Origin: Nymphaea colorata
Lineage: Eukaryota > Streptophyta > Magnoliopsida > Nymphaeales > Nymphaeaceae
Direction: 5' to 3'
Length of the DNA stretch: 64,000 bases
NCBI RefSeq assembly: GCF_008831285.2
Contig: NC_045144.1
Location: 20,165,716 to 20,229,715, forward strand
This document shows positions 16,788 through 64,000 of this stretch, piece after piece. Under the pieces are notes generated by a model that was given only the letters and a program-made list of their open reading frames with translations, ran no database searches and was not told the DNA's origin. Position 1 is the first letter of the stretch. The number at the start of each line of letters is the position of its first letter. The translations under genes were made by a program, and so were the position numbers.

Positions 16788-16860
<73 letters not shown>

Positions 16861-29132: not shown

Positions 29133-30381
29133 GATGATGTGCTGCCACAGCTGGTCTTCTGTAGCTGTTGACTGGACCTCTGCTTCAGGGCTGTTTCAAC
29201 TTTTATATTATAGGCTTGCTGCTTATGCATGAATGGTGTTATATATCCGTGAAGGTTGTCATGTTTGGTGGACATGCTGCACCTCACTCTCTTTCTCTTT
29301 CTCTCTCTTCAACCCTCTTCACTTCATTCCTTTGGTTATTATTTTTTGGGAACGTTTAGGAAGGTAGGATAGACTCTTTTTATCGTCTTTTTATTGTTCT
29401 GAAATATCGAAAGTAGGGGTAAAGAGGGGCTGGATGGTTGCTTCAGATCTCTGAATGGCAGAAGACATGCATACAAGAAACGACCTGTACAAATTGATAC
29501 AAAATGAATAGCAATTACGTACACAGAGCAAAACAGAAGGCTGTTACAAAGAAGTGTCGCAAATGAATGAATTGACCCGGTCAATGTAAAGAGGAGCGGA
29601 CCCATCTCTCGACAAGCTTTTAGAAACTCGAATATTAAATTTGGTTGATCGGGTTAGTATGGTCAATTCCATCTTGTCTTTTTGTTTCGTGTACAGGATA
29701 TACATGAGCTCCACTGCAAAAAGTTCAAAAATTAAATATTCAAAAATTAAATAAATTGTATATACACTAGCATGGGTTAAAAGGGACCCAGGTCGAACGC
29801 TTAATCTGCCTCAACTTGAACGTGATGCAAACATGGAAATGAAGAGGCAAGTGCACTTAGCCAAAACCAAATGATGAGCTGTGGCCCAGCCTTGAAGCAG
29901 ACTGTGTCTCACCCGGGACAGGGAGCCGCCTCTGTCGATTACTTCTGTATTAAATCTTTTCTCCTGAAAGATCTGCGCTTGTCATGCTCCTTATTCATAT
30001 GGGTGGCTTCAAATCCAAATGAGACAAAACTTACTATGGGATTCTGGTATATTAATCTGTTTAGATATCGTTACATCTGTTTAATTAGGCATCATTACAA
30101 ATTAGATAGGTATATACGACTATATTTTCAATAGCAAAGAGATTAACAGAGTTTATGGAGTAATGATACTACATGGAATATCATTACACGGATAACACAG
30201 CACAAACTGCACATATGATCATACAAGTAATTGTTTCTTTATTGCACGAAACAAACCACAGCTTCATGCTTCCGGCATGACTTGCAATCCCCTAATTTCC
30301 CACTGTACGTAGAAGTACGTTCCACACTTGCTGATGATGCATACCATCATTATTTATTATTCAGAGAGAAGGATCCAAATT
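29133..30381. other. Convergent intergenic region between EDM2 and GRP-A
   Basis: The left part is EDM2 3' UTR, with a CT-rich stretch near 29285-29310. The right part (about 30150-30381) is GRP-A 3' flank on the minus strand. It carries the conserved inverted repeat at 30160-30187 and the TATTTATTATTC word (AATAAA on the minus strand) seen downstream of all six GRP genes. No other gene is seen. Confidence 0.6.
30160..30187 (-). terminator. Conserved 3'-flank inverted repeat of GRP-A
   Basis: GTAATGATA and TATCATTAC form 9-bp arms around a 10-base loop, about 200 bp after the GRP-A stop. Corresponding sites: 37942-37969 (B, GTAATGA/TCATTAC), 43945-43973 (C), 48118-48145 (D), 52949-52976 (E), and a shortened one near 59161-59184 (F). 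A role in 3' end formation is only inferred from position and recurrence. Confidence 0.45.
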
Positions 30382-31385
30382 TCAGTTATGCGGAATGCCT
30401 TGAGATTGCATAAGCTCAGCATACTCCTTGGCGGAACAGCACCTGTAGTAGCAGCGGTATCGGCAACCACCCCAGCCAGGACCGCCACCCCAGCCCGGTC
30501 GGCCCCAGCCAGGACCACCACCCCAGCCGGGGTGGCCGCCCCACCCTCGCCCTCCGCCCCCGTAATAATCTACGTGGTGTTCGGCATCTTTCACGTCAGC
30601 GTCCTTGTTGTCTGCATGCAAAAGCAAATTCCAGAAACGCGCTCAAACAAGCAAGATAAATGTGAGAGAGTTTAAGAATCAAATATATCAAGACAACAAG
30701 AACGAAAAAACAGGACAGACGGCCATTGAACAATTTATTATTGGAGATCTAACAGGGATGCAAGTATGCAGTTTAGTTGATATCAATGAGGAGAACAACC
30801 TAAAAAGTCGAAAGCAATAGCTTAGCTGTTTAATTAGCTGTGAGAATCCATAAAAAGGAGGCAAAATAACAATGATGAGGACGATGACAGATCATCAGTG
30901 GTCATGACCAAGGCAAATCAGTGAGTTTCATTTCTTCAGCAATCAAAGAACTCACACAGAGAAGGAATCAAAGGTTGGGTTTAACACTCGGAAGGATTGA
31001 GTTTGCATGCATATTCGCATGGGAACCTACTGACGTGCTGATAGATGGTAGCTAAACAAGAAGTGAATGGTTCAAATGACATCAAGGTGAAACAACAAAG
31101 TAGATTATTCGAAAGGTATCAAGGAAGCATATCTAGTTCTCTGCTATCCTATTCTGAGGGCTCAAAAATGCGGTTGGGGAATTCCGTTTCACCCAAAGGT
31201 ATGTCATTATCCCTTTAAAAATTGTGATCTGACAGGCAACAAGATCATCTGGAGAGAGAGAGAGAGATTTCTGGCAAATCCAGATAATGGAACCTACATT
31301 CTCTTTCGCCTAGTTGGCGTGCAAAAGCCACCGACAGCAATAAGAGGACAGTCAGAAAGAGGATGGGAACGGAGACTCGCTTCAT
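30382..31385 (-). CDS. GRP-A: secreted glycine-rich protein with Cys-rich tail (105 aa)
   Basis: Two exons: 31385-31298 (88 bp) and 30611-30382, GT-AG, phase-1 intron of 686 bp, stop TGA at 30384-30382. Residues 1-22 are a signal peptide (MKRVSVPILF...SVAFA) predicted to be cut before RQLGE, so the protein should go to the cell wall or apoplast. A charged linker (NKDADVKDAEHHVD) follows, then a GPGW-type glycine/tryptophan repeat, then CRYRCYYRCC and SAKEYAELMQSQGIPHN. This layout resembles the plant GRP family (Pfam PF07172 type) of stress-induced small wall proteins. A is the most diverged copy: Tyr-Tyr replaces Gln-Trp before the repeat, the Gly in the Cys motif is missing, and it has fewest repeats (four PGW). 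The start is the only ATG giving a signal peptide. Confidence 0.85.
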
Positions 31386-31450
31386 TGTAGACTTACACGA
31401 AGCTACAAGAGAAAGGCTGATCGGTGCAGAATCGAACCTCCTTGGTGCTG

Positions 31451-31458
31451 TATTTATA
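31451..31458 (-). promoter_or_regulatory. TATA box of GRP-A
   Basis: TATAAATA on the minus strand, 66 bp upstream of the ATG, in the same position relative to the gene as in the other copies. Confidence 0.75.
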
Positions 31459-34400
31459 AGGAAGATACAACTTACGAAAAGACAGAGTTATTGCGAAGCA
31501 ATGTACACTCAATATCATCTCATTTATGAGTTCAAACAAGCCCTTCTTCCATCAATATTTAATTGATTTGGTATAGTTGAAGAAGTCTCTAGGAAGGTCC
31601 ATTCATAAGTTGGATGATGACATTTGAATGAGTTTTCTCCCAATAATTAAGTCTCAACTTTTAGCTATTTTCGAAGCTTTTTTCAAGTTAATTGCAGGTC
31701 AATAATCCATCATCTTTTGTCCCCTTGTTTGTGCATATCCATTTCGTCCATCACTATCCAAAAAGCTTAACATTAGATGCTTAGTTGAATTAATTAGCGA
31801 AGGGAAAAAGTGTTTTTACTCCTAACTATGTCTTAATATGTAATTTAGTTGCATTTGAAATTTTACTTACGTCAACTTTGATGCCCAAAAACCATATATA
31901 AAAGTTGATCACATCAAAATTTCTTTCTTGTCAATTATAGTTTTGTCAATTCTGACAGCACTTTTTTATCTCTAATCTTCCTAAATGCTTACTATCAAAT
32001 ATTCAACCAAGGTAGTGGTACTCAGTTGTTAAGACTTGTTAGGATTAATCAAGATTAAGATATAGTTTCTTTTTTCGTTTTAATAATATACTGCAAATAA
32101 AGGGAATATATGCTGATATATAGAGTTTACACCGTCGATAGTAAAACTACGGTAATATCTTGTGTAGATTAGGAAAACCTATAACCGCTTTTCATCGCTC
32201 TGCGGAACAATCGGACCAGCTACTGATCATCGCCTTGGTAAGCTATTGCCTCACCAACTAGCTAATCAGACGCAAGCCCCTCCTCGGGTGGATTCATCCT
32301 TTTGCTCCTCAGCCTACGGGGTATTAGCAGCAGAGTTTCCAGCCTACGGGGTATTGGCAGGTTTTAATGCGTTACTCACCTGTCCGCTACTCACCTGTCT
32401 GCCACTAGAAACACCACTTCCAGTCCGACTTGCATGTGTTAAGCTTCAAATGGTTCCGAATGTGGGTTTGTATGGATGAGATCATTATAGAAGGAAACTC
32501 CATCGAGTTAGTTTGTTCAACAGCTCAACGTCAAAGTAGGAACGGATTTGCCTTCATGGGGTTTAGCAGATGTGCCTAGACCTCTGATCATGTCCCCTTA
32601 CTGACTGCCAACTTTTTGAATAAAAAATCTTGAACTTTTTGCACATTTAAAGATCCACCTTTGCAGGAGCGCTGTTGGGGCACTTTAACCAAGCTAGTCA
32701 TTTCACCAGGTCAATTGGGTTCGCTAGCATATGACATCCTCCAAAAGGTTTCCAAACGAATTCTCCAATATATCTGAATGCCTAATCAATGTGGGCTAGC
32801 TATAGCAACCTAGATGTCAGGACATCCACTCGAAGATATGCCACACATTTTGTTCCACAGGTTAAATCATGGAACTCAAAGAATGACCCTCCTGATCCAA
32901 TATAGAATTTGAGTACACGGCTAGTTCCCATGCTATAGAAGAAATTGTGTGGCCAAGTATATATTTGACTCAAGAGCAGGAATTCCTTTGATAAAAATAT
33001 TTAACCCACTATTTGATGAAGATAAACATAGCACCTTGCTCTGCCTCCCATTTGGTTTGTCAGAAATAAGAGCATAATGTGTATAAATTAATTTGAACTT
33101 GCCAAGAATAACAAGATTATAGTTGTGCATTACAACTTTTAAAATTGTTTTCTCCCTTGATATGATCTAACTACATCTATGTGAACTCCAGGGTTTAGAA
33201 CATGGAAATCCAATTTCAAACAGGCCATTAGGAAGCATATACATATATATGTGAACCTGACCCAGTAGGGATACCAAAGAAACTAAGGATCAATGAAGAA
33301 CTTCTTATCATTTTAATTTCTTTTTGGAATATAATTGGACAATTACATTGCAAGTTTTTACTAAAGGCCAAGTGAAGCAAACTCATGAACCCTTTTGTTT
33401 CCTGTTAGTATTTTAAGGTTAGCTAATAGATGATCTCTCAACTCCATTGTTGGCAGATAGCAAGGGCTTTATTAGTTAAAACCTTCAGTTTTTTCCTGCC
33501 AACTAACTACATAGGGTTGGAAGGGGTAGAATTAGTTCGATGAATGCAAAAGCAATGTCCTTAACTGATCTATATCCAATCCAGAGCTAAGGATTCGATG
33601 CAGAAGAAGAATCATCATCAGAGGCAGAGCAAGACATTTCGAATGAGGACCAGTCATTCAAAAATTTTAAACCCCTTAAATACATAGTAAAATGATTGAG
33701 GAGCACTATATATAATCAATCAAATGATTTGGGGGGCAGCTATTATGTAAATAGGCAAGTTGTGGGACCGTGTGGACAACTGCTCAATCTTGCCCCACCC
33801 TTAATCGTCCTTATCTCCAAGTCAAGCTATCACTTTCATTTCAGCATGAGGTGGAGCTTAATTATCATCATGTTTGTAGATAGGCATAGGAATCACAACT
33901 ATACATCTTGCAAGTGACTCGATGAGCAGACGATATGGAGATTAGATATGAACACTCTTAATTTCATTGATTCCGATGGGTGAGGATGAAATTTAATATG
34001 GTTATCGAGAACGTGAATTGAGCTTCAAATAATTGTGGGAGATCGGCCAACCCATCTTTATTTCCCGAAAACCGCTAAAAACCATTTATGCGATATTAAT
34101 GTATAGGTTGGTAGGGTTGACTTAGCTTATATTAATCATAATTAATGTCATTGAAAATGAAATGTTAACAAACTTCAAAGCCAATTCAACTATCTTTAAA
34201 AGTTAAGGTTATACACAATTCGAATAAGTCAGGCCCCTAAGTCAATGAGGCGTATTTGCAGTGTCATGTTAGTGCCGTATCGACGTGTTCATCGCTGTTC
34301 GACCTAATTGCTAGAATGGTGAGACAAAGGTGCTACTCTCTGTAGCTCTGGTGCCTGTGGCTTCATGTGTTGTATGCATGTCAGCGCATGCATTACATTA

Positions 34401-34474
34401 TAGTTGCTATGTAACAGTCAGATCGCTTCCGGGGTTTCATCTATTTATTAATTTGTTGTATTGTACATATATAA

Positions 34475-34580
34475 GGGTTGTTTTACAACAGTAACATTTT
34501 GTTACTATTATTTAATTTGTCTTAAAGATTCAGATAGATTCATGAACACTAAACAGTCTATTCCCTTTGCCAAACGACCC
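34475..34580. mobile_element. MITE-like element in the A spacer, shared by B, D and E spacers
   Basis: Short inverted-repeat element with a GGTCATTTGGCAATA-type left end and a TTTGTCAGATGACC-type right end (clearest at 40399-40504). Copies: 34475-34580 (A), 40399-40504 (B), 49909-50014 (D), 56141-56231 (E, GGGGGCGTTTGGCAATAAG / GCTAAATGACCC). It occupies the same place in each duplication unit, so it was inserted before the array expanded. Confidence 0.6.
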
Positions 34581-36412
34581 ATAATATATTTAGCTGCAGT
34601 TATAGGCACAAATAACTTATAAATATGTAGTTTGATTAATAGTTGATCTTGACTTTGGAGTTTGACTCCATGTCAGCCAATAACTGCCGCTGGAAATTTT
34701 ATGAATGTGGCCAATAAAGGCCAAGTTGGTAAATCTCGTCCAGGAAAAGATGAAAATTCGGCACCAGTTTGATCGTTGATCAATCGTAATGAATTAGAAC
34801 TAATAAAGCCAGTTGAGTTGCACCAATCAATTTATACGATAATCAAGCGCATTATATAGCAACTCAACCCACTCGTTAAAACCAGAAAACTTTTATTGCA
34901 CAAGTAAAGAGGTGCATTGCCAGTAACCAGCTACATTTTGCGGAAGATAGACTCACAGAAGCCTTTATCTCCTGAGACGACCAAGGTGCATTGTCAGTAT
35001 CCAGCTAACTAGGACTCAGAAACAAGTTTCCAGAAGTTTTTAGTTAAGGGGTGGGTACTAGTAATAAAAAGTTTTAGTATTTTAAGGGGTATCAATATAT
35101 AAATGAGAAAAAATTGTCTTAGCTAACTAGGACTCAGAAACAAGTTTCCAGAAATTTTTAGCTAAGAGGTACTATTAATAAAATGTTTGTCTTTTAAGGG
35201 GTATCAATATGTAAATGAGAAAAAATTGTCTTGAGGTATTAGTAGGAAAATAAACATTTTTTATAGGTTTGTACGTACAATTACTCACACACGCTAGGGC
35301 CACAAACTTGAAGCATGTCATACCTACTGTCGTGGTATGCATGCATGTATGTATGTATCCCATGCACAAACACACATTCCCATACAAACCCTCGTTGATG
35401 CCACGGCCTCAGAATGTCACGCTGTTAGTGGTGCGAGGATGTTCCTTAGACAGCCAAAGAGGCAGTATATGCACTACACTGACTATGAACCTGGTTTTAT
35501 ACGCTATACTTGTGTGGAAAAAAAATTAAAGATCTTTTCATAATGACAAAAATGCTCCTGTTTGACAGGAAAATTAAAGATCTTTTTTTAAAGACAAAAA
35601 GGAAATCGAAAAAGTGAAAAGACATTTCTTTTTCAATAATTTCAAAAATGTGCCATTTTTTTTTTTTCTTTTGGCGCATGCTTGTTGAATGCACGCAACT
35701 CAAACTCCACTGACAACGCTCCAGGTAATCTCAAATATGTCCTTCATTGCTCACCGTTGCTGCAGGTGCTTGAAGCCATGCTCGGATCCATCCTGACCCA
35801 GAAGCAAAAGAAATATTGTTTGCAACCCGTTCTCCTTAGTTGGTCCTTCCCTTTAATACAGACAGAACTCTGCTTCTATTTTTCTTCAATAAGAATTCTT
35901 TATGTGTGTTCGATTCCTTGCCCCAGTTGCAAGCATTATTTGCTTCTAGCAATGTGTCGAGCTTGTCGAAAGCGGTGTCAATTATGTTTGAAGATTGAAT
36001 TAGAACAACCGTTAGTGCTGCTTTATTCTCCTCTAAATGTTGCAAATGACATCGCTAAGCTATACAAGGCAATGGCATGATGCTTATTCTTTTCTTGCAT
36101 TTTCTCCTCGAACTTGAATAATTGAGCACCCGCATTCCAGAATCCAAATCCTGCGGCCCCTTGAAATCAGGCCTCGGCAAGGGATGCTCTGTAGAAACTT
36201 TGAAGTTGTGATGTTACTGTAAGTCTACAACTTAGATGAGTTAAACACTACCTAAAAAGCTGCGTCCTTTCATGGAAGAGGACTTCTTGCTAAGCGTGGC
36301 GTCTGATCTCTTTGAGTTGAATTGATCAACAGTCTCCCATTTGTAGTTTACTGAGTTTTACGTACCTGAGATGTAACAACCGAATGAAGCACTTGGAACT
36401 TTTTAGGTCTCA

Positions 36413-38164: not shown

Positions 38165-39089
38165 TCAGTTCTGCGGAACACCTTGGGATTGCACAAACTC
38201 AGCAAACTCTGCGGCAGAACAACATCGACCATAGTAGCAGCGGTATCGGCAGCCACCCCAGCCAGGTCGGCCCCAGCCTGGACCGCCACCCCAGCCTGGT
38301 CGGCCCCAGCCAGGACCACCACCCCAGCCGGGGCGGCCACCCCAACCCGGCCCTCCACCCCACTGATCTACATGGTAGTCGGCATCTTTCACATCAGCGT
38401 GCTTGTCATCTGATGCAAAAGAAATTGCAGATAGACACTCAGACAAGCAAATCAGTGTAAGAGAGTTTAAGATTCATATATATAGACAACAAGAACTAAG
38501 GAAAAAAAAAAAAACAGGGAAGACGGCCATTAAAAGAATAAAATATTAGGGAGTAAAGATGCAAGGATATGCAATTTAGTTCGTATCCATGAAGAGAAAA
38601 GCTTAAAAGATAAACCAATATCTCAGCTGTTTAGTTGGGAGAATCCATAAAAAGGAGCAAAAAATAACAGTAATGAGATCCATTGCAGATCATCACTGTT
38701 CCTCACAAAGGCAAACCAGTGATTTTAATTAATGACCTCACACACAGGAAGGAACCAATGGTTGTGTCAAACACTTGGAAGGACTGAGCTTACATGCATA
38801 TGCTAATGAGAGCTTTACTGACGTGCTAATAAATGGTAGCTACATGTCATTAACAACGTTCATTGGAAAAGGAAAAGGGACTGGCAAATCTTTCTAAAAA
38901 TGTGACATGACAAACTATCTTCACCATCATCTGTACACACAGACATACACACACAATCGAGAGAGAGAGAATATTATGGCGAACCAGAGAATGGAACGTA
39001 CATTCTTTTTCGCCTAATTGGCGTGCAAAGGCCACAGACAGCAATAAGAGGACGGTAAGAAAGAGGATGGGAACGGAGACTCGCTTCAT
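38165..39089 (-). CDS. GRP-B: secreted glycine-rich protein with Cys-rich tail (110 aa)
   Basis: Exons 39089-39002 and 38409-38165, intron 592 bp, stop TGA. Signal peptide (residues 1-22) then RQLGEKE, linker YDKHADVKDADYHVDQW, six PGW repeat units alternating GGGPGW and GRPGW, then CRYRCYYGRCCSAAEFAE and FVQSQGVPQN. Its linker matches GRP-E and is the fullest form in the array. The acceptor reads GCATCAG where most others read GCATGCAG, still a valid AG. TATAAATA lies at 39145-39152. A short GA run (38959-38970; CT on the sense strand) sits in the intron just after the donor. Confidence 0.9.
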
Positions 39090-39144
39090 TGCAGAAACTA
39101 AGGGGGCAGGACGATCGGTGCAGAATCAAACCTCCTTGCTGCTC

Positions 39145-39152
39145 TATTTATA
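39145..39152 (-). promoter_or_regulatory. TATA box of GRP-B
   Basis: TATAAATA on the minus strand, 56 bp upstream of the ATG, in a conserved AGAGCAGCAAGGAGG context (minus strand) shared with copies D and F. Confidence 0.75.
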
Positions 39153-42000: not shown

Positions 42001-43063
42001 GACCAGCGCCTCAGAAATTTTTGACTAAGGGGTATTATAATAAAAATTTTGAACTTTTCAAGGGGTATCAATAGTATGTAAACGAGAAAAATTGTCCTGA
42101 CGTATTTGTAGGAAAACAAACATTTTCTATGGGTATGTACGGCAATTAGTCACACGTGCCCATACTTACCTCCACGCTTCTCTGAAACACAAGTTATCAG
42201 GGCTATAGCCTGAAGCATGTCATATCCACCTCCTTAGTGATATGTTTGCAAGTATGTACGTATCCCATAAGTATGTACGTATCCCATGCACATACACACA
42301 CATTCTCATGTAAACCCTCATGACGCAAAGGACTCCGAATTTCATGCTTTTAGTGGCGTCAGGATGCCCCATAGACAGGCATGATGCTTATTCTTTTCCA
42401 GCATGTTCTCCTTAAATTTGAATAAACGAACAACCTCATTCCAGAATCTAAATCCTGCGTCTGCCTGAACTCTATGTCAAGTTTTGGCCTTGCCGGGGCA
42501 GGGGATGCACTGCAGAAACTTTGAAGTTTTGAGTTAAACGCAACCTAAAAAGCTGCGTCTTTTCATGCAAGAGGACCTCTTGCTAAACCTGGCGTCTGAT
42601 CTCTTTGAGTCGAATTGGCAGACAGTTTGCGATTTGTAGTTTACTGAGCTTTACGTACTCAAGACGAGATGTAACAACCGAATGAAGCACTTGGAACTTT
42701 TATGTCACACACGGGTACTCGCATAGAGTAGCTGACTGAACTTGGCGGTCGTATTAAAAGCAAGTCGCAGTTCAAGTTCTTACACAACGCACTAGTGATC
42801 CGAGTGTATGGTACCTCAATCATAGTCCTAAAGCAGCCTTGTAACACTGAGCATGAGCTAAGCGGCAAGGACTTTGACCCTTCTTTGAGTAGCTTTTGCT
42901 CACGTATGCTTATAACATGTTGGTAGTTCATGAGGTCTGGATTGAGACATTCTTTTTTAAGGCTTTCAATTTTCTATTTTTAGTTACAACGTGTTATGCT
43001 TTGAGACTACTTTAAATGGATTTTTTGGATTGTTCCACATTATTAAATGTGAACTCATCTAGT

Positions 43064-43065
<2 letters not shown>

Positions 43066-43141
<76 letters not shown>
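43066..43141. repeat. TA microsatellite
   Basis: About 76 bp of pure (TA)n in the B-C spacer. The same place in unit A (37079-37095) holds only a short run. Confidence 0.97.
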
Positions 43142-43144
<3 letters not shown>

Positions 43145-44164
43145 TTTTTAAAAATAACCGCATTTAAAATTATACTGTTGTTGTCCTGTATGCACCCCTA
43201 CTTATGTGACCTAGAGAACATTTGTCCCTATAAAAACACTAAATATTGGGCGGGACTTCTGCCACATTTGATGAGAAACACATGCGAAAGGATGCTGGGA
43301 AGACGTGACCTCTTTCAATAAATTAACAACTACTCGACAAATCCACGGCATATTCACTTTATGTGGCTGCGATGGGATAAAAGGTTGGTGAAACTGATCT
43401 CAAATGAAAGCCATTTACAGTAAGCGAACTACTAGGGAGGCCGGATCAAGTTGGGTCGAACGTTGTGAGTCCGCGTAGTGTGATGCTCCACGCAGCTGGC
43501 CACAGTTCCTAGTTATGGTCTGACTTTGACTTTTTCCAAACGAGTTGGGCCATTTATAGTACAATTAACTCAAAATTAGCTAGTAATGACCAGACCAGTT
43601 AATGATCACATGGTTATTTTTTTTATTAATGGTGCAAAACTTAGATTTCAAAGTTAGTTTTGAATGCTTAAAGGAATCTTGCAAAGCAAGTCAGGCTGGT
43701 GAGAACCCTGTTTTCAGTTCGATTACGCATGCACTACGTTTTTAAATTGCAAACGGTGGTAATTTGTTACTTGGACTGGTAGGTATAATATGGATCCACC
43801 CAACTCTCCAAGCAACTCTGCACCGTAAGGACAAAGCAGAGGGAAAGGGGTTTGGGCTTTCCTTGGGCGGCTAACTCTCACCCGAAGGTGACTCGGTGCA
43901 AATGAATACAAGTTAAACAGCAAATAGGGTAACAAACTTCCTGGTGTAATGATATTGCATAGCATTTCATTGCACATTTAAGAAAGCACAAACCGAGCAT
44001 GTGAACATACAAGTTTTTGGTTCCTCCATTACATAAAACAGACAACAACATGATGCTCCCCGCTATCCTCTTAATCTACCTTTCCATTGTAGAAGTACAT
44101 TCAACACATGCTGATGGTTCACATGGCCAACATTATTTATTACTTAGAGGTATCCGACGCTTGA

Positions 44165-44779
44165 TCACTCCTGCGGAATGCCTTGGGATTGTACAAACTC
44201 AGCAAACTCTGCGGCGGAACAGCACCGACCGTAGTAGCAGCGGTATCGGCAGCCACCCCAGCCAGGGCCGCCACCCCAGCCTGGACCGCCACCCCAGCCT
44301 GGTCGGCCCCAGCCAGGACCACCACCCCAGCCAGGGCGGCCGCCCCAGCCCGGCCCTCCACCCCAACCTGGCCCTCCACCCCACTGATCTACATGGTAGT
44401 CTGCATGCAAAAGAAATTTCAGGGACAACCAAATCAATGTAAGAGAGTTTAAGATTCATATATATAGAAAACAAGAGCTAAAAACAGGGAAAATCGGCCA
44501 TTAAATAAATCGATATTGGGGAGCAAAAATGAAAGGATCTGCATTTTAGTTCATATCGATGAGGAGAAAAGCTTAAAAGTTTAAAGCAATAGCTTAGCTG
44601 TTCAGTTGTGGGATAAAAAAGGAGGCAAAATAACAATGGTGAGACCCATGGCAGATCATCAGTGTTCTTCACAAAGGAACATAGTACATACATTGTTTTT
44701 CGCCTAATTGGCGTGCAAATGCCACAGACAGCAACAAGAAGACGGTAAGAAAGAGGATGGGAACGGAGACTCGCTTCAT
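44165..44779 (-). CDS. GRP-C: secreted glycine-rich protein with shortened linker (107 aa)
   Basis: Exons 44779-44692 and 44400-44165, stop TGA. The signal peptide is as in the other copies, then RQLGEKQ. The linker is only YYHVDQW: the DKHAD-type stretch present in B, D, E and F is missing. Seven PGW units follow, then CRYRCYYGRCCSAAEFAE and FVQSQGIPQE. The intron is only 291 bp, less than half that of the other copies, and has lost the CT tract. Frame and splice sites remain intact, so the gene is probably functional. TATAAATA at 44852-44859. Confidence 0.88.
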
Positions 44780-44851: not shown

Positions 44852-44859
44852 TATTTATA
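44852..44859 (-). promoter_or_regulatory. TATA box of GRP-C
   Basis: TATAAATA on the minus strand, 73 bp upstream of the ATG. Confidence 0.75.
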
Positions 44860-48349: not shown

Positions 48350-49075
48350 TCAGTTTTGTGGAACGCCTTGGGTTTGCACAAACTCAGCAAATTCTGCGGC
48401 AGAACAGCACCGACCATAATAGCAGCGGTATCTGCAGCCACCCCAGCCAGGGCCACCACCCCAGCCTGGACCGCCACCCCAGCCGGGTCGGCCCCAGCCA
48501 GGACCACCACCCCAGCCAGGGCGGCCTCCCCAACCTGTACCTCCACCCCAGCCTGGCCCTCCACCCCACTGATCTACATGGTAGTCTGCATGTTTGTCAT
48601 CTGCATGGAAAAGAAATTGCAGAGACACATTCAGATAAGCACATCAATGTAACAGTTTAAGATTCATATATGCATACAACAAGAGATAAAAACAGGGAAG
48701 TCGGTTATTAAATAAACGAATATTGGGGAGCAAAAATGCAAGCATCTGCATTTTAGTTCATATCGATGGGTAGAAAAGCTTTAAAAAGTTAAAGCAATAG
48801 CTTAGCTGTTCAGTTGTGGGAATCCGAAAAAAGGAGGCAAAATAATAGTGATGAGACCCATGGCAGCTCATCAGCGTTCTTCACAAAGGCAAATCAGTGA
48901 GTTTAATCAATGACCTCACACACAGGAAGGAACCAATGGTTGGGTTAAACAATTGGAAAGATTGAGCATGTGCTTTACTGACGTGCTAGTAAATGGAAGC
49001 CGCACGTCATAAAAAATAGGCATTTTTCTCTAAAATTGTGACTTGACAAACTGTCTTCATCGTCATCCGCACACA

Positions 49076-49138
<63 letters not shown>

Positions 49139-49255
49139 ATTGTGGCGAACCACAGAATGGAACATACATGGTTTTTCGCCTAATTGGCGTGCAAATGCCA
49201 CAGACAGCAACAAGAAGACGGTAAGAACGAGGATGGGAACGGAGACTCGCTTCAT
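48350..49255 (-). CDS. GRP-D: secreted glycine-rich protein with Cys-rich tail (112 aa)
   Basis: Exons 49255-49168 and 48600-48350, intron 567 bp, stop TGA. The signal peptide differs slightly (PILVLTVFLLLSVAFA), then RQLGEKP. The linker is YDKHADYHVDQW. There are seven repeat units, one of them TGW instead of PGW, then CRYRCYYGRCCSAAEFAE and FVQTQGVPQN. The intron holds the longest CT tract of the array (GA on the plus strand, 49079-49133). The TATA position reads TGTAAATA instead of TATAAATA (49321-49328), so expression may be reduced. The coding sequence shows no damage. Confidence 0.9.
49079..49133. repeat. GA/CT microsatellite in GRP-D intron
   Basis: About 27 GA units. The same site carries about 8 units in A (31252-31267), 6 in B (38959-38970), 8 in E (53942-53957), 20 in F (60170-60210) and none in C. 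Confidence 0.95.
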
Positions 49256-49320
49256 TGCAGAGTTATACCAAACTAAGGGAGGAAGGCTGATCGGTGCAGA
49301 ATCAAACCTCCTTGCTGCTC

Positions 49321-49328
49321 TATTTACA
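49321..49328 (-). promoter_or_regulatory. Mutated TATA position of GRP-D (TGTAAATA)
   Basis: The site aligned with the TATAAATA of the five other copies reads TGTAAATA on the minus strand, with both flanks conserved. The second base of the box is changed. Confidence 0.75.
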
Positions 49329-53178: not shown

Positions 53179-54074
53179 TCAGTTTTGTGGAACCCCATGG
53201 GATTGCACAAATTCTGCAAATTCTGCGGCGGAACAACACCGACCATAATAGCAGCGGTATCGGCAACCGCCCCAGCCAGGGCCGCCACCCCAGCCTGGTC
53301 GGCCCCAGCCTGGACCGCCACCCCAGCCTGGTCGGCCCCAGCCAGGACCACCACCCCAGCCTGGGCGGCCGCCCCAACCTGGCCCTCCACCCCATTGATC
53401 TACATGGTAGTCGGCATCTTTCACGTCAGCATGCTTGTCATCTGCATGCAAAAGAAATTGCACATTCTCAGACAAGCAAATCAATGTAAGAGAGTTTAAG
53501 ATTCATATATGTAGACAAAAAAGCTAAAAACAGGGAAGTCGGCTATTGATAAATCAATATTGGGGAGCAAAAATGCAAGGATCTGCATTTTAGTTCATAT
53601 CGATGAGGAGAAAAGTAAGAAGTTAAAGCTATAGCTTAGCTGTTCAGTTGTGGGAAACCATAATAAGGAGACAAAATAACAATGGTGAGACCCATGGCAG
53701 ATCATCAGTGTTCTTCACAAACGCAAATCAATGAGTTTAATCAATGAGCTCACGCACAGAAGGAACCAATGGTTGGGTTAAACACCTGGAAGGCTGAGCT
53801 TATATGCGTATGCTCATGACGTGCTAGTAAATGGAAGCTGCACGTCATTAACTGCGTTCATTGGGAATGTGAAAAAATAGGCAAATCTCTCTAAAAATGT
53901 GACATGTCAAACTATTTTCTTTATCATCCGCACAGAGACACGAGAGAGAGAGAGAGAATTATGAAGAACCAGAGAATGGAACATACATTCTTTTTCGCCT
54001 AATTGGCGTGCAAATGCCACAGACAGCAATAAGAGGATTGTAAGAAAGAGAATGGGAACGGAGACACGCTTCAT
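53179..54074 (-). CDS. GRP-E: secreted glycine-rich protein with Cys-rich tail (116 aa)
   Basis: Exons 54074-53987 and 53441-53179, intron 545 bp, stop TGA. Signal peptide (PILFLTILLLLSVAFA), RQLGEKE, full linker YDKHADVKDADYHVDQW, seven PGW units, then CRYRCYYGRCCSAAEFAE and FVQSHGVPQN. It is the longest member, because it keeps both the full linker and seven repeats. TATAAATA at 54140-54147, 66 bp upstream of the ATG. Confidence 0.9.
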
Positions 54075-54139
54075 TGCAGAGTTATACCAAACTAGAGAAG
54101 GAAGGCTGATGGGTGAAGAATCAAACATCCTTGCTGCTC

Positions 54140-54147
54140 TATTTATA
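54140..54147 (-). promoter_or_regulatory. TATA box of GRP-E
   Basis: TATAAATA on the minus strand in the conserved AGAGCAGCAAGGA context (minus strand). Confidence 0.75.
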
Positions 54148-54752
54148 GGGAAGATACGATACAGAGGGAGTTATGAGGGTAGTTGGGAAGGCAATGTGCA
54201 TTCAATATCTTCTTAGATGAGATTTAGCCCTCCTTCGATCCATCAATATTTAATTGAATCAGTTTCGTCGACATCTCGAGATAAGTGCACTCATAAGTTG
54301 GATGGCATTTGATTGAGTTTTCTCCCAATAATTCTCGTCTTTTACTTATTTCCAAATTCCGCCACCCAGCTTTTTCCAGATTGCTAAATTAATCAATCCA
54401 TCATCTTGTGTCCCCGTGTTTATGCAGATCCATCTCGTCTGTCACTATCGAAAAAATGTAATACTATATGTTGAGCTGAATTTGATTAGCAAGGGAAAAA
54501 AGTGTTTTTACTCTTAACTACGTCTTGTTATGCAATTTAATTGTATCTGAAATTTTACTTTCATGAACATTCGTGCCCAAAAACCATAAAAGTGGATCAC
54601 ATCAAAATTTCTTTCTTGTCATGTATTATTTTCTTAATGTCAATTCTGATAACTCTCCTTCATCTCTCGTTAAATATTTAACAAAAATAGTGATAAGGAC
54701 GCGGTTGTTAGTCCCATGTTAGGATTACTATAAACTTAGATTCGGTTTTTTG

Positions 54753-54817
<65 letters not shown>

Positions 54818-57800
54818 ACTACCAAAATCCGACAAATATGGCACTTTGCTCTTCTTCTCGTTTGGTATATAAGGAATAAGAGCATAATGTGTAGAAATTG
54901 ATATGAATTTGTCAAGAATAATAAGATTGTAACCAACCTTTGAAATTGTTTTCTGCCTTGATATAATCTAACTACATCTATGAGAACTCCAGGATTTACA
55001 ACCTGGAAATCCACTTTCATACAGACCATTTGGAAGCATATATGTGAACATCACCTGATAGGGATACCAAAGAAATTAAGGATCGATGAAGTATTTTTGA
55101 TCAATTTAATTTCTGTTCAAAGTCATGACCCCTTTTGTTTCCTATTATTATTTTTATGGTTAGGTAATAGATGAACTCTCAGCTCCATTGTTGGGGTATA
55201 TGCAGGGGCTTCATTAGTTAAACCCTTCACCTTTTTTTGCTGCAAACTAACTGCATAGGCCAATTTTTGATGTATGCAAAAGCAATGAACATAACTGATT
55301 CATATCCAATCCTGAGAAAAGGATTTGATGCAGGAGAAGAGTCTCTTTTTACCCCTATGTACCATCATCAGTGGGAGAGCCAGACATCTTGACCGAGGGG
55401 CACTAATTCAAAAGAGCACATCTGGCTCCACCTTCATCGTTGTGCTCTGTATGGACAACTGCCCACAGAAGAGCACATCTGGCTCCACCTTCATCGTCAT
55501 TGTCTCCCAGTCTATCAAGATCATTTCAGCATGTAGTGGAGCTTAATAGTCATCATGTTTGTAGATAGGCGTAAGAATTACAACTATCTTGCAAGTGACT
55601 GGATAAGTACAAGATAGGGAGATTAGGATATGAACACTCTTAATTTCATTGACTTTGATGGGTGAGGACGATAATTTAATATGGTTATCGAGAATGTGAA
55701 CTGATCTTCGAATAAGATGGCCTAATTTTCTAAAACCATTAAAAGCCACTTATGCGATATTAATGTATAGGTGGGCAGGGTTGACTTTTGGTATATTAAT
55801 TAAGGAAATAATTGAAAAATGAAAAGTTACCAAACGTCAAAGCCAATTCAACTATCTTTAAAAGTTAAGATTATATAAATTTCAAATAAGTCAGACTCCG
55901 AAATCAATGATCCGTTGTTCACAATGTGCAGTTCATATTGACGTGTTCCTCGCTGTTCGACCTAATTGGTAGAATGGTCAACAAAGTGCTAAGAAACGGG
56001 TTAGATCGGGAGTTCTGGTCTATGCATGTGAGTGCACACATGATATTTTAGTTGCTATGCAACGGGACAGATTGGATCCGAGGGTTTGGTCTATTTTTTT
56101 AGTTTGTTGTAATGTACATGAACTTGCATTGACCTTTTAAGGGGGCGTTTGGCAATAAGAACTATTTTTTATTATTTTATGAATTTATCCGATATAGATT
56201 CATCAAATGCTAGTTGCTTGCTAAATGACCCATAGCTGTACGCATGGATAACTTATAAATATATAGTTTAATTAGTGGTTGATCGTTTCTTTAGAGTTTG
56301 ACTCTAGATCAGCCCATTATTGCCGTTGGAAATTTAATGGGCCTGATAAAGGCCAAGTTGGTAGATCTCATCGAGAAAAAGGAAAAAAATTGGCACTAGT
56401 TGGAGCAATGGTCAATCGTAATGAATTAGACCTTATAAAGTCCGAATTAGACCTAATAAAGTCGGTGAAGTTGCACCAATCAATTTAAATGATAATTAAG
56501 CCCATTATATATGAACAGAACCCACCCGTTAAAGCCAGCAAACTTTTATTGAATAAGAGGTGAGTGTATTTTAAAGCCAGCAAACTTTTATTGAATAAGA
56601 GGTGAGTGTATTCAAGAGATGAATTATATGGACCCGGGTGCAATTCTGCACAATATGGACCCCGGTGCAATTCTGCACAACCTTTGGTGGATGACATGTG
56701 TTTTTTTTACCACATGAGTCTATACACAGGTATATAGACCCAAAGCTAGTTATTTGTATACCATGTGCATGAACAGAGATGTATAATGACTAAAATACAT
56801 TGATTAGAGTAAAAAAAAAGACTTTTAAAAAGGCGTAAAACATAATAAAAATGTTACAATACTGAAAGAAATATATATACCTTTATAAAAAATTTCTAAA
56901 TGGCCCAACTTCCCTCGAGTGGTTTTTGAATGCATACGAGTTGCGTGCACACTAGAACCAGCTTGGGTATTCAAGGGGTTGTGGACCTACTGCACGCAGA
57001 AACTCGGGGGATGCGGCAAAGCGACAAGCAAGTGAGGACATTTAATTTAATAGGCTGGGTCCACGGTATGGAGCTACTTTCCTCACATGGGCTCCCGATT
57101 CAGAGCAGTTGGCAACTCATCTAATAAATGAAGGCTCCTGTCAGACCACTAAAAGCTTTTACTGGTTCTGCTTTGCTTTTAACGCGAAAGACGAACATTG
57201 AGTATTGAATTGTAGAATTTCACGCAATTCGATTGTGGGTAGACATGAGCAATAACCGCATGTAAGTTCTAGGATGGCTGCCCACTACTATGACATCTCA
57301 GCCCGCACGGGTCAGAGCCATATTCTGGTCAAGATTGGATCACACAAACCTTGATGTCCATGTCCATGGAACCAGAAATTTCTGGCAATGGACTACCAGC
57401 AATAAAATTTTAAAATTTTAACAGGTACCATTGTCAATATGAAAAGAATCATTTTTTTGCAGGCCAGAACGGGCCACACCTGCATGCACCCCTACTCGGA
57501 AACACAAGTTGTTGAGGTACACATGTTGTGTCAAGCATTATGGTATGTATGTATCCCATGCACATGCACATGCACACACTCATGTTTGATGAAAAAAAAC
57601 TCGGAGTGTTACTCTCTTAGTGGTGCCAATATGTTCCTTAGATAGGCAAAAGGTCAGTATTAGATCTACAATGACGATGCTCAGGTAATCTCAAAGACGT
57701 CATTCGGTTTCTTCAGTTTCAATGACTCAATTATGTTTGCAGATTGGATTAGAACATTGGTTAGTACTGTTGTGTTCTCCTCCAGATCTTGCATTAATTG

Positions 57801-59380
57801 ACATCGCTAAGTTATAGTATAGCTAAGAAAGCCTCTGGTCCAATGTGGAGATTCCAATATAGTCGTTGTCATGGGGCTTACTCTTTTCGTACCTTTTCTT
57901 TTTAAGCTTAAAAAATGAACATCCTAATTCCACAATCTAAATCCTGCATCTGCCTGAAATCTACAGTAAGTTTTGGCCTTGCCGCAAGGGGTGCTCTCGG
58001 GAAACTTTAAAGTTGCGATGTACTATAAGTCTATAACTTAGATGAGTTGAACACTACCTAAAGCTTCGTCCTTTCATGTAAGAGGACATCTTGCTAAGCC
58101 TGACGTCGGATCTCTTTGACTTGAATGGATCACCAGTCTCCGATCTGTAATTTATTGAGCCTTATGCATTCAAAATAGGATACAATAATGGAATGAAGTA
58201 CTTGGGTGCCTTATACACATGGGTACTCCCCAAAGGGCATAACATATGGACTGACTGTCACATTGATTGACAAAAGCATCATTAGTTCAAGTCTTTTAAA
58301 CATAACACTTTAGTTGATAGGTATATTATAGATTCACTATGGTCTTGAAGCAACCCATGACCCTAAGGGCAGAGTGAAAGACTTCAGCTCTTCTTCGGAT
58401 AGCTTTCACTCACCCCAAGTCGCATAAGTACTCTATATTGAGTGATTACCAAAACCTCAAAGGAAACCAAGGGACTCTAATGCTTATTACATACCAGGTA
58501 CTCCATAGGTTCTATGAGTCAGATCCAGGTTTGAGCCATTCCTTTTTAAGGCTTTTTTATTTTTAGTTACAATGGGTTATGCTTGAAACTGTTTTGGGTG
58601 AATTTCTTGGATTTCTGCAAATTATTAATTGTGAATTCTTTGTTTTTTTTTTTTTTGAATTATATACACATATACTGTGGGACTTCTACCATGTCTGATG
58701 AGAATCAAGATTGTTGGGACGACGTGAGTTGTATAAACCTCTTTCGATAAACTCCAACTCTATAAACCCACAGCATAACCACTTTATGTATCTGTAATGG
58801 GATAAAGATACTGTTTCCTTAATAAACCAGCAGATTCAACAACCGAAGTAAATTATTTCACTATCAACCAACAAAAGGTTGGTGAAACAAACTGAAAACT
58901 ATTTAACGTTTCTTTATTAATTAACTATTCAACAACAAAAGCCTGCATCTGAGTCTTCTTTGACCAGTTTCCAGATACTGTTCGCCTTGGATTTTTTCCA
59001 AATGGACCAGTTGGACTTTTTATCATATAATTAGCTCCAAATTTAGCTTGTACCGACCTAGGGTTAATGAGTAAATGGTTATTAATTTCTTTCTTAATTG
59101 TGCAAAACTTAGGTCTCAAAGTTATTCGTGCATATGAATATACTTTCGACAGCAAATAGAGCAATATTGCATAGCATTTCATTGCACAGTTAACACAGCA
59201 CAACCGTACACATGATCATACAAGCTTTTGGCTCGCATTACATGAAACAAACCACAACATCATTCTCTCCACTATCCGCATAATCTATCTTTCCATTTTA
59301 GAAGTACGTTCCACACATGATGATGATTCATATGGCCATCATTATTTATTTATTCAAACGGATAGGGATCTGACGCTTGA
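54148..59380. other. Spacer between GRP-E and GRP-F
   Basis: No gene. Shared blocks: about 54390-54620, 54840-55040, 55625-55985, MITE-like element 56141-56231, 56275-56520, 57870-58170 and 58545-58640. A TA run lies at 54755-54815. Small local tandem duplications: GAGCACATCTGGCTCCACCT near 55416 and 55470; a 42-bp repeat near 56530-56612; GGTGCAATTCTGCACAA near 56638 and 56665. Confidence 0.75.
54755..54815. repeat. TA microsatellite
   Basis: Pure (TA)n run of about 60 bp in the E-F spacer. Confidence 0.97.
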
Positions 59381-60157
59381 TTAGTTCTGCGGAAGACCTT
59401 GGGATTGCACAAACTCAGCAAACTCTGTGGCGGAACAGCACCGACCACCATAACAGCGGTATCGACAGCCACCCCATCCAGGGCCACCACCACCGCGCCC
59501 CGGGCCCCAGCCAGGACCGCCACCCCAGCCTGGTCGGCCCCAGCCAGGGCCGCCACCCCAACCAGGGCGGCCGCCCCAACCCGGCCGCCCACCCCACTGA
59601 TCTACATCAGCATCCTTATCATCTGCATGGAAAAGAAATTGGAGAGAGACACTCAGACAAGCAGATCAAAGAGAGTGTAAGAATAATATATATATAGACA
59701 ACAAGAACAAAAGAACCGGGCAGGCCGCCATCACATAAATCAAAGTTGGGGAGCAAAGATGCATATGCTATTTAATTCATTCCAATGGGGGGAAAAGCTT
59801 AAAAAGTTAAAACAATAGCTTAGCTGTTTAGTTGTGAGAATCCATAAAAAGGAAGCAAAATAACAATGATGAGATCCGTGGCAGATCGTAAGTGCTCTTC
59901 ACAAAGGCAAATCAGTGAGTTTCACTTCTTCCGCCATCCATAAAGTCACACACAGGAAGGAATCAATGGCAGGGTTAAGCAGTACTTGGAAGGATTGAAT
60001 TATATGCATATGCTGATAGAGCTTTACTGACGTGCTAATAAATGGTAGCTACTTGCCATTAACAACGTTCACTGGGAAAGGAAAAGAGATCGGCAAATCT
60101 CTCTAAAAATGTGATATGACAAACTAGCTTCAAGATCATCTATATATACACACACTC

Positions 60158-60214
<57 letters not shown>

Positions 60215-60330
60215 TTATGGCGAACCAGAGAATGGCACATACATTCTTTTTCGCCTAATTGGCGTGCAAATGCTACAGACAGCAATAAGAGGACGGTCAG
60301 AAAGAGGATGGGGACGGAGACTCGCTTCAT
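59381..60330 (-). CDS. GRP-F: secreted glycine-rich protein with Cys-rich tail (109 aa)
   Basis: Exons 60330-60243 and 59622-59381, intron 620 bp, stop TAA (the other five use TGA). Signal peptide, RQLGEKE, short linker YDKDADVDQW, then GGRPGW-type repeats with a variant GPGRGGGGPGW unit, then CRYRCYGGRCCSATEFAE and FVQSQGLPQN. The second exon has no internal ATG in its frame, so it is easily missed by simple ORF calling, but it is fully open. TATAAATA at 60396-60403. A GC-rich hAT-like element starts about 200 bp upstream of this box. Confidence 0.88.
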
Positions 60331-60395
60331 TGGAGAGTTATACCAAACTAGGGGAGAAAGGATGATCGGTGCAGAATTAAACCTCCTTGCTGCTC

Positions 60396-60403
60396 TATTT
60401 ATA
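60396..60403 (-). promoter_or_regulatory. TATA box of GRP-F
   Basis: TATAAATA on the minus strand, 66 bp upstream of the ATG. Confidence 0.75.
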
Positions 60404-60601
60404 GGGAAGAAGAAAGATAGAGTGCAAAGAGAGAGAGAGAGAGAGTTATGACGGTAGTTGCGAAGGTGATGTGCATTCAATATCTTTTCAGATGAGAGTT
60501 AAAGCCAGCCCCCTTTTCATCAATGTTTAACTGAGTCGGTGTCCACGAAGTCTCGAGGTAAGTGCACTCATAAGTTGGACGGTATTTGTTTGAGGTTTTT
60601 C

Positions 60602-61754
60602 TAGGGTGGGTATCATCCGAGCAGGGCCGGCCTGGATCGGCCCGTCGGGCCCAAAGCCCGGGCCCGGCCCGGTAAACAAACGGGTCAGGTGGGCCAGGTA
60701 CCGGGCCGGGCCATCAAAAATCAGGCCCAGTCCGGCCCATTAGTGTTAACTGATGGGTTGGGATGGGCCTGGCCGGGTACCGGGCTTGGTCCACAAAAAA
60801 TCAGGCCAGCCCAACCCGTTTTGTTAACTGGCAGGTTGGGTTGGGCGAGCCCGGGGTTGAGGGAGAACTCACTGAACCAGGGGAGGCAGAACTTCTAGGA
60901 AAGGAGGACGGCGGCGAGGAACCAGCTGGCGGGGAGGGAGGTGACCCTAACTGGGCGGTATCCTCCTAGACCCTTCGTCTACCCTCCTGTCGAACGACGA
61001 CGACTACCATTCGCCTCTGTCGCAGCCGCAGTAAGAGTCAAAAAGAAGAAGACAGAGATGGAGAGGGGAAGGCGATGGAAGGCGTTGGCCTTCCGTTGGA
61101 GGGCGACGGCAGGGAAGGGAGGCCACCGGCTGGTTCGCCGTTGCCGGAGGGCACCGTGCGACCCACCGGTGCCCACCCACAGCCTGCCGGTGACTTCCTC
61201 GCCGCCACTACAGCCGCCCAATCAAGAAAAAGGGTTTTGAATTGGAAAGAAGAAGACTGGATTCTGTCGGTTTTGGGTGGGCGATGGCCCGCCGTCACGA
61301 CGGGCGATGGCCGGCCGTGCTGGCGCGACCCGCCGGCGGCCACCCATGCTGTTGGGTGGCCTGCCGATGGAGTTCCACCGTTCGCCTTAGGGATGGGCCT
61401 TTCTAAGCCCGGCCCGGCCCGGATCCTAGACCCTTCGTCTACCCTCCTGCTGCTGGATGACGACGACGACGGCGGCGTTGGCCACACCGATGGGGGTCTT
61501 GAGTCGGAGATCATCGACGGCAACAACGATTGGAAGGAAGCGATGCAAAGCCTCCTCTCCTCCTGCTCCTCGTCCCCATCGCCGCCTCCGGCCTTCTCCC
61601 CTTCTCCTCCCTCTGCTTGCTCGTCGACGTCGACCTAACGGGCCGTCGGGCCGGGCCGGGCTCACTAAAGTTGAGCCCGATAAAAAAAAAGTGCGACCCG
61701 GACCCAGCCCATACCGGGCCAGCCCGGCCCGGCCCGGCCCGACGCCCAGGCCTA
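60602..61754. mobile_element. GC-rich hAT-like non-autonomous element, possibly nested
   Basis: The left end TAGGGTGGGTATC and the inverse of the right end TAGGCCTGGGCGTC share a hAT-like pattern followed by GGCCCGG-rich sequence. Outside lies GTTTTTC on the left and GTTTTCC on the right; in unit E the same place is uninterrupted (GAGTTTTCTCCCAATAA). The interior is far more GC-rich than anything else in the window. It includes a second left-end-like TAGGGATGGGCC at 61388 and a direct repeat CTAGACCCTTCGTCTACCCT (60967 and 61427). Open frames inside (up to 187 codons) have no recognised domain and no transposase. Confidence 0.7.
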
Positions 61755-64000
61755 GTTTTCCCCAATAATGCTAGCCTTTTAGCTATTTCCAAATTCTGCC
61801 AACCAGCTTTTTTCAAATTTGTCAAATTAATTAATGCTTATCTTGTGTCCCCGTGTTTGTGCATATCCCTTTCGTCCATGATCACTATTGGAAAACCCTA
61901 ATACTTTATGTTTAGGTGATTTTTTTAGCAAGGAAAAGGTTTTTATACTCCTAATTATGTCTTAATATGCAATTTAGTTGTAACTGAAATTTTACTTTCA
62001 TGAACATTCATGCCCAAAAAACCATAAAAGTCGATCACAACAAAATTTCTTTCTTGTCATGAATTAAGCAACTCTCTTACATCTTTCGTCTTATTAAATG
62101 CATGCTGCCAAATATTTAAGGAAGATAAATATTTGACTATCAAAATCCGATAAAGTCTTTTGTACTTTCCTTTTTCTGTGCGTTAAGTTCCTGTGTCCAA
62201 ATGTTTCTGAATATGGGGATGTGTTCAATATTTAGAAATCTACACTTTCGAGGAGAACTGTTGGAGCACCCACTAAGTCAATTGGGTTTGCTAGCATATG
62301 ACATTCTCTAAAAGGTTGCAAAATGAATTCTCCAAACAAGATCAACTATCTGAATGCCTAATCCAATTGGGTTTAACTATAGTAACCCAAATGTCAGGAT
62401 ATCCACTCGAGGAAATGCCATATATTTTGTTCCACAGATTATGTCATGGAACTCAAAGGAAGAGCCTCTTGATCCACTACAGAATTTGAGTACAAGGCTA
62501 GTGCCAATGCTACAGCAGAAATTATGTCACTGATATTTAACTCAAGAAGTAGGAATTCCTTGGATAAAAGATTTAAACCACTATTTGATGAAGATAAATA
62601 TAGCACACCTTGGCTCTGCCTCTCATTTGTTATACTACAACTAAAAGCATAATGCACAGAAATTGATTAGAATTACTTGATTTATATATAGCTTTTTAAA
62701 GTGCGAACTGGAATGCCTAAAGATTGGGTTAGGGTTTGCAAGACCAAGCATTGAGGACAATTTTGGGCCAAGATGTTATATTGGCATTAGAGCATGTACA
62801 GATATATGTACACTCTGTATGTATTGTGCCAGCGGGCGCCATAGTTGCTCAATTACAACCTTTAAAATTGTGTTCTCCCTTTATATGATCTAACTACATC
62901 TAAGTGAACTCCAGGGTTTGGGACCTGGAAATCCACTTCCAAACAGACCATTTGGAAGCATGTACGTGCAAGCTCATGGACCCTCTTGTTTCCTATTATT
63001 ATTTTATGGTTAGATAATAGATGAACTCTCGTCTCCAGTAACGTTGGCGTGTATGCAAGGGCCTTATTAGTTAAGCCGTTCACCTTTTTTTCAGACAAGT
63101 AACAGATTAGTTATGAAGGTTTGGCCATTTTTTGAAGTAGGAAAAAGATATGTGCTTAACGGTTCTATATCCTCCGGAACAACGGATTTGGTGCAACAAG
63201 AATCCCATTTTACACCAATATCATCACCAGGAGCAAATCCAGGCATCTTGACTGAAGCGAACTAATTTAAAAATTTTAAACCCCTTACATACATGGCAAA
63301 ATGTTGATTAAGGAGCACTATATATAAATAAGTAAATGATTGGTGGGCAGATAATATGTAAATTGGCAAATGGGTAGAGCTAACAATACGTAAATGTAGA
63401 GACAATGTGGACAACTGCCCACACATGACCATATCTGTCTCCACTCCTGAACGTCCTTATCTCCTAGTCTATCCCTTTCATTTCATCATGTAGTGGAGCT
63501 TAGTCGTCATCATGTTTGTAGCTAAGAAAGATAATTTACAACTCTCTTGCCAGTGACTGGATGAGCAAACGATATGGAGATTAGGATATGAACACTCTTA
63601 ATTTCATTGATTTTGATTGGTGAGGAGAAAAGTATTAATATGGTTATCGAGAACGTGAATTGTGCTTCAAGTAATTGTGGGAGATCAGCTTGGCCATCTT
63701 ATTTTCTGCAAACCATTAAAAACCATTTACGCGGTATTAATCTATAGGTTGGCAGGGTTGACTTAGCCGATATTAATTAAGGACATAATTGAAAACGAAT
63801 TAACGTGACCAAACTTCAACGCCAATTCAACTATCTTTAAAATTAAGATCGTATAAAATTCAAATAAGTCAGGCCACTAGATGTGTATTCACAATGTGCT
63901 GCTAGTGTCATATTGACGTGTTCCTCGCTGTTTGACCTAATTGCTAGAATGGTAGAACAAGGTGCTACTAAGCCTAGGCACCGGCATGTGCCATCCTGGA
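61755..64000. other. Spacer beyond GRP-F, array continues to window end
   Basis: No gene. Blocks shared with other units: about 61755-61830, 61830-62070, 62260-62640, 62855-63000 and 63579-63960. It resembles spacer A in keeping the block found at 32670-33060. Because the block order matches the start of a full unit, another GRP copy or a unit remnant may lie just past base 64000. Confidence 0.65.

Follow-up and report, generated by a model that had tools for sequence, protein, structure and literature searches.

Six tandem genes for small, predicted secreted glycine-rich proteins in Nymphaea colorata share a conserved C-terminal cysteine module with a wider gene family

The window analyzed here, a stretch of 64,000 nucleotides from Nymphaea colorata (C7:20165716–20229715, where C7 stands for contig NC_045144.1; assembly of 407.8 Mb in 783 contigs), carries a tandem array of six small genes on its minus strand. 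A window coordinate w corresponds to C7 position 20165715+w; "extended" coordinates, which are negative or lie beyond the window, follow the same rule. Gene models were read from the sequence. In each of the six genes (g1 to g6; Table 1), as the original prediction had it, a signal-peptide exon of 88 bp is separated by a phase-1 GT-AG intron from a second exon that stays open and ends in CRYRC...CC, and the stop-to-stop distances (7783, 6000, 4185, 4829, and 6202 bp) also agreed with those given there. That the first exons are "the same" holds for their length and near-identity, not for their exact sequence: they encode 28–29 amino acids (aa), which are 93–100% identical to one reference. The introns measure 686, 592, 291, 567, 545, and 620 bp and the proteins 105, 110, 107, 112, 116, and 109 aa (g1 to g6, respectively). 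A tblastn search of 274 kb with exon 2 of g5 matched all six places with E values no higher than 3.4e-41, so the array is not a product of chance. Inside the window, exon 1 and the Cys tail were found as these six minus-strand copies, with no further ones.

Table 1. Features of the six-gene array in window coordinates. For each gene, the ATG starts at the upper coordinate of exon 1 and the stop codon ends at the lower coordinate of exon 2.
Feature	Coordinates	Strand
g1 exon 1 (signal peptide, 88 bp)	31298..31385	-
g1 exon 2 (Gly/Trp repeat and CRYRCYYRCC tail, shorter by one residue), ends TGA	30382..30611	-
g2 exon 1	39002..39089	-
g2 exon 2, ends TGA	38165..38409	-
g3 exon 1	44692..44779	-
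g3 exon 2, ends TGA; intron just 291 bp, shortened acidic leader	44165..44400	-
g4 exon 1	49168..49255	-
g4 exon 2, ends TGA	48350..48600	-
g5 exon 1	53987..54074	-
g5 exon 2, ends TGA	53179..53441	-
g6 exon 1	60243..60330	-
g6 exon 2, ends TAA	59381..59622	-
TATAAATA, 73 bp upstream of g1 ATG	31451..31458	-
TATAAATA, 63 bp upstream of g2 ATG	39145..39152	-
TATAAATA, 80 bp upstream of g3 ATG	44852..44859	-
TGTAAATA (variant box), 73 bp upstream of g4 ATG	49321..49328	-
TATAAATA, 73 bp upstream of g5 ATG	54140..54147	-
TATAAATA, 73 bp upstream of g6 ATG	60396..60403	-
Six tandem units of ~4–8 kb (gene and flanks), collinear blocks 69–93% identical between units	30092..63970	

In all six proteins, a signal peptide is predicted by rule from a hydrophobic core followed by AFA-Arg (maximum Kyte-Doolittle hydropathy 2.98, computed for the g2/g6 sequence only). 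Cleavage is predicted, by eye, to occur after AFA, and the signal peptide would target the preprotein for secretion. Next come a short acidic leader and the GPGW/RPGW repeat, which may together form a flexible aromatic linker, and the proteins end in a Tyr-rich module of four cysteines (C-x3-C-x3/4-CC, then S-A-x-E-[YF]). This module, probably disulfide-bonded, is the candidate for the conserved working end. Glycine accounts for 21–28% of the residues, and the mature proteins are near charge balance (K+R 6–9, D+E 5–9). When 300 bp upstream of each ATG were scanned, the box TATAAATA was found 63–80 bp before the start codon of five of the six genes, and g4 carries TGTAAATA instead.

The original prediction took the retention of six copies as a sign of selection, for either dosage or diversification. 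For the 15 pairs among the six genes, Nei-Gojobori counting gave a pooled nonsynonymous divergence (dN) of 0.049 and a pooled synonymous divergence (dS) of 0.379. The resulting dN/dS, which the original prediction had proposed as a check, was 0.13, and the ratio over the whole coding sequence was below 0.3 in every pair. By part, the pooled ratio was 0.18 for exon 1, 0.09 for the acidic leader, 0.13 for the tail (dN 0.081, dS 0.637), and 0.05 for the Gly repeat (dN 0.017, dS 0.318), the last value depending on the alignment of the repeat units. In three disjoint pairs, Fisher tests gave p values of 1.4e-6, 3.9e-6, and 6e-12, with site numbers back-calculated and counts rounded. Selection on the six genes is purifying, not diversifying. 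Selection for retention is supported by these values, and an effect of dosage is possible; diversification among the six was not seen, and neither was positive selection in the pairwise dN/dS.

Self-comparison of the region from 29 to 90 kb revealed that the repeated unit is the gene together with its flanks (~4–8 kb), not the gene alone. The collinear blocks are mostly 69–86% identical, with one of 150 bp at 93%, and divergence this large between the units excludes an assembly artefact as the source of the copies. Unequal crossing-over of such a unit could have generated the six tandem paralogues. Past the window, parts of both flanks of a seventh unit, which reaches to ~68.3 kb, are present at 64.06–65.49 and 66.33–68.35 kb, with no recognizable gene between the matching flanks (~64.0–68.35 kb extended; C7:20229715–20234065). 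Because of this unit, the statement in the original prediction that all are intact applies to the six genes but not to each unit. At the place where exon 2 of the seventh unit is expected, a Gly/Trp-rich frame of 21 aa was found (65950–66012; tblastn E 0.03). Its DNA never matched any of the six second exons over more than 10 bp, and an equally good match occurred in one of 32 control segments of 4.5 kb; it was, for these reasons, judged unconvincing and not counted as a gene remnant.

The original prediction had also suggested looking for copies beyond position 64000, and this search yielded, besides the flanks of the seventh unit and the wider family described below, one intact copy. This copy, g7i (extended 78804–79611), is inverted relative to the six, has a shorter repeat without any GG(x)3GG, and is likewise preceded by TATAAATA; its dS to the six, over signal peptide plus tail, is 0.9–1.5. 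A divergent exon-1-like stretch lies at extended 85151, where no tail was found. Three exon-1-like signal peptides are located within 1 kb of each other at extended -59449, -58990, and -58628 (no in-frame ATG in the last), and a single tail follows ~6 kb further. Some of these four exon-1-like copies are probably relics. Between the seventh unit and g7i, a 382-bp direct repeat (70656–71037 and 75772–76153 extended; 99.2% identity, ~5.1 kb apart) is much younger than the array, and its two copies are possibly the ends of a recent insertion.

Such a locus might have arisen by birth-and-death duplication with retention for dosage only, the copies being equivalent and their number incidental. This explanation is compatible with the one we favor below and differs from it only in why there are six copies. 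It draws on the purifying selection on six proteins that have not diverged, on the geneless seventh unit, on the spare exon-1 copies, and on the stop codons inside the match at four of 42 family places. The fact that every pair is constrained after a dS of 0.2–0.65 suggests, however, that no copy was free for long, and the different middle parts of some relatives are a hint that function has changed in other parts of the family. We consider retention for dosage alone somewhat improbable.

To delimit this family, the genome was searched with the protein of exon 2 (13 matches), a 25-aa module (40 matches), and an upstream relative (23 matches), and the results were combined with those of local tblastn and merged by hand by position. 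At least 42 family places resulted on four contigs: 23 on C7 (19.82–20.25 Mb, plus two at 21.67–21.68 Mb), 14 on C2 (1.478–1.565 Mb), 4 on C11 (9.857–9.876 Mb), and 1 on C12. A family place denotes a match to the last exon rather than a proven gene; the DNA of 31 of the 42 was read, and exons of the relatives were paired by position and phase. Four of the others are weak (E >0.001): C7:19822616, C7:19850936, C7:21684740, and C2:1514603. A stop codon interrupts the match at C7:19822616, C2:1511826, C2:1514603, and C11:9875453, and the C12 copy loses its frame after CC. All of seven further weak places, chosen by hand, contain the tail. The 40 kb around a chance pattern match on C2 contained no convincing family member, the weak matches there having E values of 0.008–0.04.

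Eighteen modules were chosen by hand from the clusters on C7, C2, and C11. All 18 keep the four cysteines and one Glu without variation, and Ser follows CC in at least 90%; in an overlapping set, the same columns were invariant in 16 of 16, with Ser less constant. These figures describe the chosen sets, and the first module of the relative L043, a C-x2-C variant, is in neither. The signal-peptide exon was compared between the array and six relatives by segment shuffling. As good a match was obtained in 0 of 1000 shuffles for each of three relatives on C7, in 1 and 3 of 1000 for L038 and L039 on C2, and in 13 of 1000 for L037 on C11. The kinship of this exon is strong within C7, less sure for C2 and C11, and only suggestive for the latter. 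Judged by sequence, the most conserved part of the family is the C-terminal module (C..C..CC, then Glu-Tyr/Phe), not the glycine; the signal-peptide exon appears conserved as well, clearly so within C7.

The part in between is of many kinds. The relatives upstream on C7 mostly have no Gly repeat, and several possess a second exon of ~45–52 aa with CC-x3-CC-x3-CC, two of which were paired by hand with a signal-peptide exon. Six or eight tail cysteines are present in 10 of the 11 C7 relatives in one alignment (A2), L036 having four. The middle is Pro- or Lys-containing and free of repeats in L046 and L050, a short GGGVRGGAKGG in L036, and a GLLGGGGGLGGG stretch in L052. In another C7 relative, it is Cys-rich and regular, with CC pairs four or five residues apart (extended ~-29635 to -28362, minus strand); by eye only, this stretch recalls granulin, and it has no Pfam match. 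The genes on C2 and C11 contain repeats such as GYGYGHG, GPYGRGPY, and GPFGRGPF, together with one to three modules. An exception is L037 (C11:9857589–9858392), which has nine Cys modules, most of them joined by a KKGAEDMHGG linker; about seven of the modules form an 87-bp tandem repeat at 98% identity, a recent expansion within a single gene. Nine C7 relatives were scanned and matched no Pfam family above cut-off, and the same was true of L038, the two-module relative on C2. DUF5118 and two other Pfam matches of L037 were at or below cut-off and were dismissed as repeat artefacts. A profile of the 18 modules, searched against solved structures, returned only eight matches, to coagulation factor XII (E 0.32–0.36), which were taken as chance. 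A limited search of open-licence papers found none of four tail motifs in full texts, and no such family was evident by title or start of the abstract among the matches listed.

The nine modules of L037 and their recurring linker are what would be expected if the family encoded defense peptides, with the Cys module or the Trp/Gly/Arg repeat cut out by proteolysis and acting on microbes directly. Tandem gene copies and the nine-module gene would then both provide more peptide, as in plant multi-peptide precursors, and the resemblance of the C7 relatives to short peptides with six or eight cysteines fits as well. Antibacterial and antifungal glycine-rich proteins (GRPs) are mentioned in PMC5852109. 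The window proteins, however, carry one module each, are near charge balance, and show constraint instead of rapid evolution, and the dibasic processing that would release a peptide was read by eye only. We consider this reading unlikely.

Diversification was observed one level above the six genes, between them and the relatives that have common ends and different middles, and the array looks like the Gly-Trp branch of a family built in this way. A tentative, quite possible extension of this is that ~40 secreted genes have fixed ends, formed by the phase-1 signal-peptide exon and the CC...E-[YF] module, and that the middle between them can be exchanged (Gly-Trp, Gly-Tyr-His, Pro-rich, Cys-rich, or almost none), with one to nine modules; the glycine repeat would serve as an interchangeable spacer and the module as the ligand. 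If so, such "glycine-rich proteins" would be one product of a modular family of secreted peptides, with the six-copy array as its Gly-Trp branch. Tandem arrays of small secreted protein genes are common, and as one of these, the array is ordinary; as a branch with constant ends and changing middles, it is of more interest. Its relatives are natural variants (almost no spacer, a proline spacer, nine modules) suited to probing the role of the module. The classes of plant GRPs are based on glycine repeats and on conserved motifs (PMC5852109), and if the Cys module is conserved while the repeat is a variable spacer, classing by repeat groups these proteins by the wrong feature.

Elsewhere in the window, plus-strand exons at 5755–6357 and 12223–12510 encode a DNMT1-RFD domain (PF12047, 40.2 bits) and an NSD-like PHD domain (PF22908, 61 bits), and jointly resemble what we take to be an EDM2-like chromatin gene. 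TA-rich simple repeats are located at 11105–11232, 16742–16941, 43022–43193, and ~54709–54860.

The known proteins closest in plan to those of the array are the class II GRPs, whose defining features are a signal peptide, repeats of the form GG(x)3GG, and a C-terminus rich in Cys (PMC5852109, PMC4783359, PMC4777284). The Cys-rich domain of AtGRP3 is required for binding to WAK1 (PMC4777284, PMC4783359), and the tomato receptor CuRe1 has as its ligand a peptide of 21 aa that derives from the C-terminal portion of CrGRP, a class II GRP of dodder, several cysteines being important (PMC7576778). The tails of the class are described as Cys- and Tyr-rich, and cross-linking to the wall is described for the NtTLRP motif (PMC3045888). 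CpGRP1, of unstated class, is described as binding pectin and modulating CpWAK1. The analogy with AtGRP3 and CrGRP makes the module the likely working end of the proteins studied here: it would either fix the protein in the wall or bind a surface receptor, as the Cys-rich tails of class II do. We favor, with a probability of roughly 0.6, the reading that the array consists of six tandem paralogues, kept by purifying selection, whose products would be secreted to the wall or apoplast and work like class II GRPs.

Several observations weigh against this reading. The evidence would fit receptor binding, wall cross-linking, or antimicrobial action alike. Intron divergence (0.09–0.39) is below dS (0.21–0.65) in all 15 pairs, for example between g3 and g5 (0.09 and 0.33, respectively); fast silent sites in the GC-rich exons or partly homogenized introns may be responsible; dN/dS may consequently be somewhat underestimated. 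The tail has four cysteines in all six proteins, and described class II members have six (PMC3045888, PMC7576778). Compared with one printed class II tail (Crip29, PMC7576778), it showed no similarity above that of shuffled sequences: the hidden Markov model score was -3.9 bits, with 496 of 1986 scored shuffles as good, and the Smith-Waterman score was reached by 172 of 500 shuffles (mean) or 30 of 500 (best single module). Finally, none of the six proteins passed the gathering cut-off (30 bits) of PF07172, the Pfam entry for the glycine-rich protein family, the scores being 27.6 (g1), 27.4 (g2), 21.1 (g4), 28.2 (g5), and 23.3 (g6), with no match for g3 at E up to 0.1.

Whether the six are true class II GRPs, kin of AtGRP3 and CrGRP that lost cysteines from the tail, is a related question. 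They have the predicted signal peptide, the Cys-rich C-terminus, and one to four GG(x)3GG repeats in each of the six proteins. For their C2 relative L039, the inferred spliced model passes the PF07172 cut-off with 39.7 bits, and the six or eight cysteines of most C7 relatives would suit a loss in the array. Moreover, the number of cysteines in class II is not fixed, because coffee members range from six to 12 (PMC3045888). Against such kinship, the spacing and sequence of the cysteines do not correspond to the one class II tail compared, and the weak PF07172 match of five of the six proteins spans the signal peptide and the Gly-rich part, not the tail. True membership is, on balance, rather doubtful.

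What the array has in common with plant cysteine-rich peptides, themselves a broad group, is the short Cys-rich second exon of several of its C7 relatives; the long repeat of the six window genes sets it apart from them. With class II GRPs such as AtGRP3 and CrGRP, the six proteins share small size, a signal peptide, a GG(x)3GG Gly repeat, and a Cys- and Tyr-rich C-terminus; they differ in having four cysteines (C-x3-C-x3/4-CC) where class II has at least six, a Trp/Pro-rich GPGW repeat, and a conserved Glu-Tyr/Phe after CC. Because of the four cysteines, the dissimilarity to the Crip29 tail, and the unreached PF07172 cut-off, we do not file the six genes as class II GRPs; by analogy, they most likely work like them. 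The in-plant roles of GRPs are little known (PMC8096328), and the original prediction, in likening the array to stress- or defense-related wall proteins, drew a comparison that is fair by analogy to class II GRPs (PMC4783359, PMC4777284, PMC8096328).

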